Below are positions 8,490 through 19,831 of a stretch of DNA of 38,448 nucleotides, piece after piece. Every line of letters begins with the position of its first letter. Position 1 is the stretch's first letter. Position numbers and translations under genes: made by a program. The notes beneath the pieces were generated by a model. That model searched no databases. It had not been told where the DNA came from and worked only from the letters and a program-made list of their open reading frames with translations. The stretch is from Gemmatimonadales bacterium (lineage in GTDB: Bacteria > Gemmatimonadota > Glassbacteria > GWA2-58-10): NCBI GenBank assembly GCA_024278175.1, contig JAJRTS010000026.1, forward strand, positions 1 through 38,448, given 5' to 3'.

Positions 8490-8517
8490 ATAAGGTGCTG
8501 GAAAATACCTGTGAATA

Positions 8518-8526
8518 TGCTATAAT
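8518..8526 (+). promoter_or_regulatory. Extended -10 promoter of the CheZ-like gene
   Basis: TGC followed by a perfect TATAAT (8521-8526) forms an extended -10 element; no good -35 is visible. The leader of about 130 nt holds a CGGGC/GCCCG hairpin and an 8-bp inverted repeat at 8580-8605. Confidence 0.6.
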
Positions 8527-8605: not shown

Positions 8606-8659
8606 CCAGCTATGGTCCAGGCCTGCTCGGGTCCGGCCAGCCGTCGGAGGGATAACGAT

Positions 8660-10180
8660 ATGCAGGAAAAAGACATAGAAGGTATCCTCCACAAGGTGGA
8701 GGAAATGAAGGTGGTGTTTGCGTTCGGAGTCAAGTTCGTTCCGTTTCTGGAAGAGTTGTTGATCTTCGTCCAGGAAATGGCTCCGATCCTCAACGAAATG
8801 AACAGGTCGATCCAGGAAAGCAGCAGCAAGATGCCCGAGGCTGCCCAGCAACTCGACAAGGTCACCAGCGCTACCGAGCTGGCCACCAACGAGATTCTTG
8901 ACCGGGTCGACAGCATGTTGGGCAAACTCGACGAGATCAGCAAACAAGTGCAGAGTGTAAATAGCCGCCTGGACGTGGAACATCAGGCGGTTGTCGAAAT
9001 TACCGAGGGTGTGGAGAAGTTGCTCAAGGTCGACTCCGTGCGCAAGCAACTGGCCGCCGTGTTCGAGTTGGATGAGGCCCGTGAGGAGGGCATGCGGATT
9101 AAGGCTTCGGTCGATAAATTCCTCTCCTTGCGCGTCGATAAATCGGTGGGCCAACAGGTTGATCAGCTTGTGCAGGACGTTCAGTCCGATGCGTTCGACA
9201 TCATGAACAGCCTCCAGGTGCAGGATATCACCTCGCAGCAGATCGAGGGCGCTCACGCCATGCTGCGCTCGATCCAGGAGCGCCTTAACGGTCTGATAAC
9301 CAAGTTCTCCGAGGCCGAAGCCCCCGAGATGATCCGCGAGAACAAGGCTTTCGATGCAGCGGCGGACTACACCGGCGCCGGTGGCCGTCAGGCCGGCGTG
9401 GACGAGTTGTTCGGCAGCGCTGGGGTTGAAACCGAAGCCGAAGAGGAACCAGCCCCGGATGAGCCGAGCGTGGATGAAATTCTCCAGCAAGAGACCGCCG
9501 GGGACGAGCCGGGCCAGGAGCCGCAGGCGGCGAGCAGTCAGGATGAGATCGACTCGTTGTTCGAGGACTCGGCTGCTGTGGCCGATGAGGCTCCGGAGCA
9601 GGAGGCGACGGCGGACGCAGCGGAAGAGGAGAGTGTAGACGCACAGCCGTCCGGACAGGATGAAATAGACGAACTGCTCGACTGGGGAGATGTCGCCGCC
9701 GGGGGGCAGCAGGAGGAAGACGCTGACGGGGAAGCCGCCGATGAAGAGGCTGTGGAAGGCGTCTCGGGTGAGGAATTGCTTGACGCCGCGCTGAACGGCG
9801 AAACCGATGAAGCCGGGGAAGAACCCGTGGCAGCCGGGCCGGAAGAGCCTGCCGCCGCAGAGGAGGCCGGGCAGCCGGAAGCCGAACAGGAGCAGGAAAA
9901 GAAGCCGGACGCCGGGGAAGAACCCGTGGCAGCCGGGCCGGAAGAGCCTGCCGCCGCAGAGGAGGCCTGGCAGCCGGAGGCTGAACAGGAGCAGGAAAAG
10001 AAGCCGGACGCCGGGGAAGAACCCGTGGCAGCCGGGCCGGAAGAGCCTGCCGCCGCAGAGGAGGCCGGGCAGCCGGAAGCCGAACAGAAGCAGGAAAAGA
10101 AAGAAGAGAAACCGGCCGCGGACGACAGCGATGGTGGCGCGAGTATCAGCCAGGAGGAAATCGACAAGTTGTTCGGGTAA
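8660..10180 (+). CDS. cheZ: CheZ-like phosphatase with CheY-binding-type motif array
   Basis: Probably dephosphorylates CheY-P. ATG 8660 is chosen for CGGAGGG upstream. Residues 1-225 are predicted to be long helices. VQDITSQQ aligns with the E. coli CheZ active site FQDLTGQ, placing the catalytic Asp and Gln at D189 and Q193. The rest is acidic, Ala/Glu/Pro-rich and probably disordered. It carries six short motifs: GVDELFG, SVDEIL, SQDEIDSLFE, GQDEIDELLD, SGEELLDAAL and the C-terminal SQEEIDKLFG. These resemble the CheY-binding N-terminus of FliM/FliY and the C-terminal peptide of CheZ. Three 33-residue repeats lie at about 385-483. No other chemotaxis gene is adjacent. The phosphatase assignment is fairly good; the binding role of each motif is inference. 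Confidence 0.7.
   Translation: MQEKDIEGILHKVEEMKVVFAFGVKFVPFLEELLIFVQEMAPILNEMNRSIQESSSKMPEAAQQLDKVTSATELATNEILDRVDSMLGKLDEISKQVQSVNSRLDVEHQAVVEITEGVEKLLKVDSVRKQLAAVFELDEAREEGMRIKASVDKFLSLRVDKSVGQQVDQLVQDVQSDAFDIMNSLQVQDITSQQIEGAHAMLRSIQERLNGLITKFSEAEAPEMIRENKAFDAAADYTGAGGRQAGVDELFGSAGVETEAEEEPAPDEPSVDEILQQETAGDEPGQEPQAASSQDEIDSLFEDSAAVADEAPEQEATADAAEEESVDAQPSGQDEIDELLDWGDVAAGGQQEEDADGEAADEEAVEGVSGEELLDAALNGETDEAGEEPVAAGPEEPAAAEEAGQPEAEQEQEKKPDAGEEPVAAGPEEPAAAEEAWQPEAEQEQEKKPDAGEEPVAAGPEEPAAAEEAGQPEAEQKQEKKEEKPAADDSDGGASISQEEIDKLFG
9812..10108 (+). repeat. Three 99-bp in-frame tandem repeats
   Basis: Units begin at 9812, 9911 and 10010, each 99 bp (33 codons) starting AGEEPVAAGPEEPAAAEEA. 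They are nearly identical at DNA level. Unit 2 has TGG instead of GGG (Trp for Gly) and two silent changes nearby; the end of unit 3 has diverged. This indicates recent duplication within the gene tail. Confidence 0.95.
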
Positions 10181-10548: not shown

Positions 10549-10580
10549 AGCCTTTAACAACCCACGTTAAAGGCTTTTTC
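10549..10580 (+). terminator. Intrinsic terminator of rpsU
   Basis: AGCCTTTAAC (10549-10558) and GTTAAAGGCT (10566-10575) form a perfect 10-bp stem with a 7-base loop, followed by a T-run to 10579. Confidence 0.92.
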
Positions 10581-19046: not shown

Positions 19047-19117
19047 ACCCGGCAGGTGCGCGGGTGCGCCATGCAAGCTGCATAGAGTGTTGCTCAAGTG
19101 ATATCAGGAGGCGATTG

Positions 19118-19831
19118 ATGGTTGAGATTAAGGTCCTGCTGGAGTTGCAGGATCTGGACATCGGGTTGGAACGCTTTCGCCAGGAACGCAGGGAGTTGCC
19201 TGCCGAGCTTAATGAACTCGAGAGCGAGTTCGAGGCTATCGGCGGACAACTGGAGGCCAAAAAAGCCGAACTCAAGGCGCTCAAGGTGGAAATTCGCGAC
19301 TCCGAAAACCAGGTGAACCAGTTCGATGAGTCCCAGAACAAGTACAAACAGCAACTGCTGACAGTCAAGACCAACCGTGAGTACTCGGCCCTGCTGACCG
19401 AAATCGAGGGCGTCAAGCGGGAGAAGGAAGAGCTCGAAGAGCTGATAATCCGGAAGATGACCGCCGTGGAGGCCGCCGAGGCCGCGGTGAAAGAATGCAA
19501 GGCCAGGGCCAGGGAGATCGAGGGCCGTCTGAAAGAAAAGCGCGGCGAGCTCAGCGGCAAGCTCAAGGAGCTCGACGGCCAGATCGGGATGCGTGAGAAG
19601 AAACACTCCAAACTGGCCGCGGACGTACCGGCCGGAGTGATGAAACTCTACAGGCGCATCATGGGCTCCAAGATTTCCCGGGCGGTGGTCAACGCGCGCA
19701 ACGGCTCCTGCGGGGGCTGCTTTGCGCACATCCCGCTGCAGAAAGTGGCCGATATCAGGATCGGCGCGCAGGTTTATACATGCGATCATTGCGGCAGGAT
19801 ATTATATTACGATGACAGCGAAAGCAACTGA
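19118..19831 (+). CDS. C4-type zinc-ribbon protein with long coiled coil
   Basis: A member of the DUF164/C4 zinc-ribbon family; some relatives are described as putative nucleic-acid-binding proteins. ATG 19118 is chosen because AGGAGG (19106-19111) is six bases upstream. Residues 1-175 are Glu/Lys/Leu-rich heptads typical of an antiparallel coiled coil. The C-terminus carries two Cys pairs, CGGC and CDHC, forming the zinc ribbon. Length 237 is typical. The stop is only 10 bases before RNase P RNA, so the RNA may be processed from, or overlap, this transcript; a similar neighbourhood is known in some actinobacteria. Its exact function is unknown. Confidence 0.85.
   Translation: MVEIKVLLELQDLDIGLERFRQERRELPAELNELESEFEAIGGQLEAKKAELKALKVEIRDSENQVNQFDESQNKYKQQLLTVKTNREYSALLTEIEGVKREKEELEELIIRKMTAVEAAEAAVKECKARAREIEGRLKEKRGELSGKLKELDGQIGMREKKHSKLAADVPAGVMKLYRRIMGSKISRAVVNARNGSCGGCFAHIPLQKVADIRIGAQVYTCDHCGRILYYDDSESN

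Follow-up and report, generated by a model that had tools for sequence, protein, structure and literature searches.

CheZ is the phosphatase that ends the swimming signal CheY-P. Why does a protein with its active-site signature carry behind it a long acidic tail with sequences like those that FliM and CheZ use to hold CheY-P? In the known systems, FliM and CheZ both dock on one common face of CheY-P, each with a single copy of a related peptide. The gene in question comes from Candidatus Glassbacteria, a little-known group, and lies in the 38,448-nucleotide stretch of DNA analyzed here (the window). The reading we favor, at a probability of roughly 0.6, is that it encodes a CheZ-family CheY-P phosphatase that would recruit several CheY-P molecules through three extra FliM-type peptides in its tail. 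This proposal is built on the architecture of the protein, the specificity of the motifs, their conservation, a predicted disorder with helices at the motifs, and a genome that encodes both CheY and FliM.

The gene, its domain and its surroundings

The gene runs from the ATG at 8660 to the stop codon at 10178-10180 and encodes a product of 506 aa (P0001; Table 1). An in-frame ATG is also found at 8612, 5' of the chosen start; the orthologues begin with MQEK or MQER at the position of 8660. In a direct scan, PF04344 matched P0001 with E=1.9e-5 and 25.1 bits, under the 30.7 cut-off, and in the genome search it gave 36.7 bits for P0001 with neighboring stretches. The orthologue from G003 (P0004) scored above the cut-off (E=2.8e-8, 34.3 bits), and hhalign of the P0001 domain to flagellar CheZ paralogues returned a probability of 98.2. 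The DxxxQ pair, D143/Q147 in E. coli CheZ, represents the acidic anchor and the catalytic amide of CheZ (PMC3035606, PMC7750401), and the AxxFQ element that precedes the CheZ active site (PMC7750401) corresponds to SLQVQ in P0001. On the PF04344 matches, the profile-profile probability and DxxxQ, P0001 can be placed as a divergent member of CheZ, which bears out the CheZ-like domain proposed in the first-pass annotation; the open reading frame, the string VQDITSQQ and the residues D189/Q193 were all as given there.

Other searches of the protein were less informative. The score of the NCBIfam CheZ equivalog on P0001 was far under its cut-off, and a domain scan detected neither the CheC domain PF04509 nor the FliM core domain PF02154 in P0001, which has only the FliM-type peptide in common with FliM. 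A sequence search of solved structures returned coiled-coil noise only, and tblastn of the N-domain against plasmids gave no match. CheZ is a long helical hairpin that dimerizes into a four-helix bundle; for the P0001 domain, the model predicted two long helices with low confidence (mean pLDDT 66, pTM 0.43), and Foldseek found no fold match for this N-domain model at E<=0.001.

The order of genes is dnaJ-rsmE-gene-rpsU-mutS2, a housekeeping cluster with no chemotaxis genes alongside, and this location away from chemotaxis genes counts against the favored reading, as do the sub-cut-off Pfam and NCBIfam scores of P0001, the low confidence of its domain model, and the orthologues in which the active site (G002) or the 9536-type motif (G002, G004) is missing. 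A promoter-like site with an extended -10 (TATAAT) lies at 8499-8526, between rsmE and the CheZ-like gene, and a terminator-like site at 10549-10575, 3' of rpsU; the counts of both kinds of site are near chance expectation. Elsewhere in the window, positions 19064-19831 encode a CT398-like protein with a coiled-coil hairpin and a C4 zinc ribbon (PF24481, PF02591), which we take to resemble the HP0958 proteins of Helicobacter, a family with a link to the regulation of flagella.

Table 1. Features of the CheZ-like gene, in positions of the window, with the basis of each assignment.
Feature	Positions	Strand	Basis
CheZ-like gene with extended tail	8660..10180	+	506 aa; ORF and orthologue starts
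CheZ-type helical domain, residues about 1-217	8660..9310	+	PF04344 and hhalign
Putative catalytic DxxxQ, D189 and Q193 (QDITSQQ)	9224..9238	+	pattern as in E. coli CheZ FQDLTGQ
RQAGVDELFG, CheZ C-terminal element now internal (9395 motif of the first-pass annotation), residues 243-252	9386..9415	+	CheZ ends of the phylum; predicted helix 240-253
Weak motif SVDEILQQ (second of the first-pass annotation)	9467..9490	+	within shuffles; short predicted helix 272-276
FliM-type CheY-binding-like motif SQDEIDSLF, residue 293	9536..9562	+	matrix, genome pattern; predicted helix 291-307, pLDDT >=50
FliM-type motif GQDEIDELLDWG (9-mer GQDEIDELL, residue 332)	9653..9688	+	matrix, genome pattern; predicted helix 332-343
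Weak motif SGEELLDAAL (fifth of the first-pass annotation)	9764..9793	+	within shuffles; predicted helix 371-379
99-bp tandem repeat, 2.9 copies, 96% matches	9812..10101	+	in-frame 33-residue acidic Pro/Ala spacer
C-terminal FliM-type motif SQEEIDKLFG, residue 497	10148..10177	+	matrix, genome pattern, orthologue C-termini; predicted helix 498-505

The tail, its motifs and their conservation

The ordinary CheZs of the phylum (e.g., P0006, L008-L013) share with P0001 the QDITxQQ site and an RQxxADEIF-like element, mostly RQxxADEIF, but they finish at this element or shortly past it. RQAGVDELFG occupies the equivalent position in P0001, so that the rest of the protein amounts to an extension of ~255 residues with three FliM-type peptides; from this comparison, the 9395 motif is the normal end of CheZ, made internal by the extension. 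By analogy with the C-terminal helix of E. coli CheZ, RQAGVDELFG may bind CheY. As C-terminal CheY-binding-type element after a linker, P0001 has, by sequence only, RQAGVDELFG and the terminal SQEEIDKLFG. In another family of the phylum (L012 689-1779, G040), a CheY-like gene is located directly upstream of a CheZ with FQDITAQQ, a plain cheY-cheZ pair.

The tail of P0001 (~280 residues) is acidic (Asp and Glu make up 33% of it, and its net charge is -80), and 18 of its 21 large hydrophobic residues fall within the six motif stretches, whose limits were set after seeing the sequence. In AlphaFold models (no templates, five sequences), the pLDDT of the tail was <50 almost throughout and short helices appeared at all six motifs; over their full length, only the three FliM-type stretches reached pLDDT >=50. 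The tail is thus predicted to be disordered, in line with the flexible tail of the first-pass annotation.

That annotation had also described six motifs of one form (9395, 9467, 9536, 9653, 9764 and 10148). All six coordinates are exact; as equivalent motifs they are rejected, since only three of them exceed shuffles with a FliM matrix. The matrix, nine residues long, was made from the N-terminal peptides of FliMs found within the phylum (LSQxEID(A/R)LL and similar) with no P0001 sequence in it; the threshold was the 99% point of the shuffle maxima, and the absolute maximum among 5000 tail shuffles was 17.2. Exactly three matches were obtained in P0001, SQDEIDSLF (25.8), GQDEIDELL (18.9) and SQEEIDKLF (21.4), all above 17.2, so the common form stands for 9536, 9653 and 10148. 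It fails for 9395, 9467 and 9764, whose scores lay between about -21 and 2.0 and which do not resemble the FliM peptide; the 9467 and 9764 motifs are weak and without reproducible conservation in the orthologues. Searched for as DNA, the strict motif Q[DE][DE]IDxL was present five times in the 4.18-Mb genome, three times in the P0001 gene, once in FliM and once in a cellulase-like protein, the last judged a chance match, and the reversed control pattern had 0 matches across the same genome. A survey of 298 genomes from the phylum turned up no further gene with more than one match. A motif match in G001, in a large protein encoded next to a fliS-like gene, was likewise judged to be chance.

A contig scan with Glassbacteria-specific peptides pointed to one relative, Candidatus Glassbacteria, and the set of orthologues comprised four further genomes of the family (G001-G004) besides P0001. 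In these, dnaJ and rsmE precede the gene and mutS2 follows it wherever the contigs extend that far. Counting P0001, QDITxQQ (D189/Q193) is invariant in four of the five orthologues and gone in G002, where FQEQGFG--K stands in its place and a tail with two motifs is kept (L007, G002:C192, 1-1479, its N-terminus cut by the contig start). Conservation of the motifs, on which the first-pass annotation had staked its reading, is found: each tail has two to three FliM-type motifs and the same C-terminus, [SK]ISQ[ED]EIDKLFx in all four that are visible (the G003 contig ends earlier), and the reading stands after this comparison. The motifs keep their order, and the linkers are unalignable, growing by in-frame repeats (99 bp x 2.9 in P0001). 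The 9653-type motif aligns across all five orthologues (Q....LL.WG); the 9536-type is absent from G004 and G002. The G001 tail has SQAEIDALF and SQEKIDELL, and its C-terminus, SISQDEIDKLFE, is on a second contig adjoining mutS2. The contig break in G001 falls in an in-frame spacer repeat particular to this genome, and from the repeat, common to both pieces, and the gene order we infer that the two pieces are one gene. G003 shows SQEEIDALF and SQKELDELL before the contig end, G004 has NQAEIDELL and the C-terminal end KISQEEIDKLFS, and G002 has NQEELNQLL and the C-terminal end SISQEEIDKLFQ.

Chemotaxis partners in the genome

A CheY, which the first-pass reading presupposed, is present, so that the reading stands here too: one clear CheY of 124 aa is encoded on contig C67, 54% identical to E. 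coli CheY, and its nearest solved structures are the CheYs of H. pylori and E. coli. It keeps D12, D13, D57, T87, Y106, K109, K119 and K122 and has Ile for K91. Its gene is ~5 kb from that of a second CheZ, the short-tailed P0006 of the flagellar cluster, in which the FliM matrix found no FliM-type motif; FapA, a sensor kinase, an AAA+ regulator and a flgB-like gene are nearby. The only FliM of the genome, on contig C91, carries the strict motif in its N-terminus, MSKILSQEEIDALLSGE.

There are two CheA in the genome, one of them a hybrid (L131 1637-4762, contig C9 of the same genome) with Hpt, three CheW-like stretches and a C-terminal receiver. The genome has 72 receiver-domain matches; the receiver of this CheA is 36% identical to E. 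coli CheY, against 54% for the C67 protein, by far the most CheY-like receiver found. No CheC-type phosphatase (PF04509) was detected in the genome. In G001, which belongs to the same genus, the CheZ paralogue of the flagellar cluster (G001:C1:114197-114429; L136, L138) consists of two short pieces with an in-frame TAG and may be broken or mis-assembled.

What the tail may do

In the proposed mechanism, the original CheY-docking end RQxxxDELF would be followed by a disordered acidic extension of ~255 residues with three FliM-type peptides, one of them C-terminal. Against the alpha4-beta5-alpha5 face of CheY-P, each tail peptide would fold into a short helix, like the N-terminus of FliM, whose LSQxEIDALL peptide is disordered and folds when bound to CheY-P (PMC6700473, PMC9126983). 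The tail would keep several CheY-P close to the catalytic Gln of the CheZ domain, where they would be hydrolyzed in turn, and its peptides would compete with FliM for CheY-P. By homology, the three FliM-type peptides should bind CheY-P; like this binding, catalysis, the local-concentration effect and the competition with FliM are inferences.

The first-pass annotation had expected high avidity or ultrasensitive signal termination from such a tail, and this was not borne out. In an occupancy model with n=3-6 independent tethers supplying one active site, half-saturation dropped ~n-fold at most (when coupling was strong; the drop was smaller when it was weak), with an effective Hill coefficient of 1.00-1.33; a titration variant of this toy model showed no consistent sharpening over the assumed concentrations. 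With a Hill coefficient <=1.33, ultrasensitivity from independent tethers is rejected, and what the tail is likely to bring, on this model, is the ability to capture CheY-P when it is scarce and to compete with FliM. Since monomeric CheY offers a single face for peptide binding, additional peptides would boost its local concentration, not the avidity for one CheY. True cooperativity needs added assumptions, like those made for E. coli CheZ (PMC2673030).

A serious rival, since G002 lost the active site but kept the tail, is that the peptides mainly sequester CheY-P from FliM or keep a reserve of it, dephosphorylation being secondary. As each chain would have three to four peptides but a single active site, most of the CheY-P that is bound would then be off the catalytic site. 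The tail-less second CheZ of the flagellar cluster could handle the bulk of dephosphorylation, and the G002 protein, with its two tail motifs and the same C-terminus, fits such a role. However, the DxxxQ that is invariant in four of the five orthologues would be needless in a pure decoy, and the second CheZ was not found in G002 and appears to be broken in G001. We consider sequestration as the main role unlikely. Its most novel form, which we advance only tentatively and with considerable doubt, is that the multi-peptide CheZ is a CheY-P depot, the dimer holding six to eight CheY-P on FliM-like peptides and thereby setting the free CheY-P at the motor, and that in at least one lineage the depot outlived the phosphatase.

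The peptides might instead dock the phosphatase on receivers other than the motor CheY, e.g., the C-terminal receiver of the CheA hybrid, which would bring its activity to the kinase array. Dedicated elements do localize E. coli and other CheZs (PMC7750401), and the genome offers both that CheA, with its three CheW-like stretches, and many receivers; the motifs, however, match FliM, whose known partner is CheY, and the free CheY is far more CheY-like than the CheA receiver, which makes docking of this kind improbable. Least credible of all is that the motifs arose by accident in a tail of low complexity and acidic composition. A third of its residues are Asp or Glu, a 99-bp repeat has recently expanded in it, and two to three of the six motifs first noted are within chance; nevertheless, this reading is already contradicted by the shuffle, orthologue and genome-pattern results, as three motifs beat all shuffles, they follow the same order in orthologues despite unalignable linkers, and outside P0001 the strict motif occurs in FliM and hardly anywhere else in the genome.

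For the recruiting phosphatase that we favor, the known systems provide partial parallels. E. coli-type CheZ (PF04344) likewise has a helical domain, a DxxxQ pair, a linker and a related C-terminal CheY-binding helix (SQDQVDDLL), a single helix (199-214) past the linker (PMC7750401). This one terminal peptide lies ~31 residues past the domain, whereas in P0001 the end-element is internal and followed by the extension. The three tail motifs match the FliM N-terminal peptide (LSQxEIDALL), including that of the genome's own FliM (ILSQEEIDALL), but P0001 is without the FliM middle and C-terminal domains and has several internal and C-terminal copies against one at the N-terminus. An accessory element that elaborates CheZ function is also known from the ChePep-CheZ partnership of Helicobacter (PMC11237671); ChePep, compared here by description only, is a separate protein reported only from Campylobacterota, and the addition in P0001 is in cis. 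Text searches of the literature, of incomplete coverage, turned up no account of a CheZ that bears several FliM-type peptides, and the genome survey took in the 298 genomes of the phylum.

The P0001 gene is an example of a chemotaxis gene that is placed in a housekeeping cluster, is easily missed by profile search and has been conserved within a lineage about which little is known. If the depot proposal were true, it would be a chemotaxis element acting via sequestration, not catalysis, in at least one lineage. As a natural experiment, P0001 sets the number of tethers against signal termination and competition with the motor, and truncation varies the peptide count.
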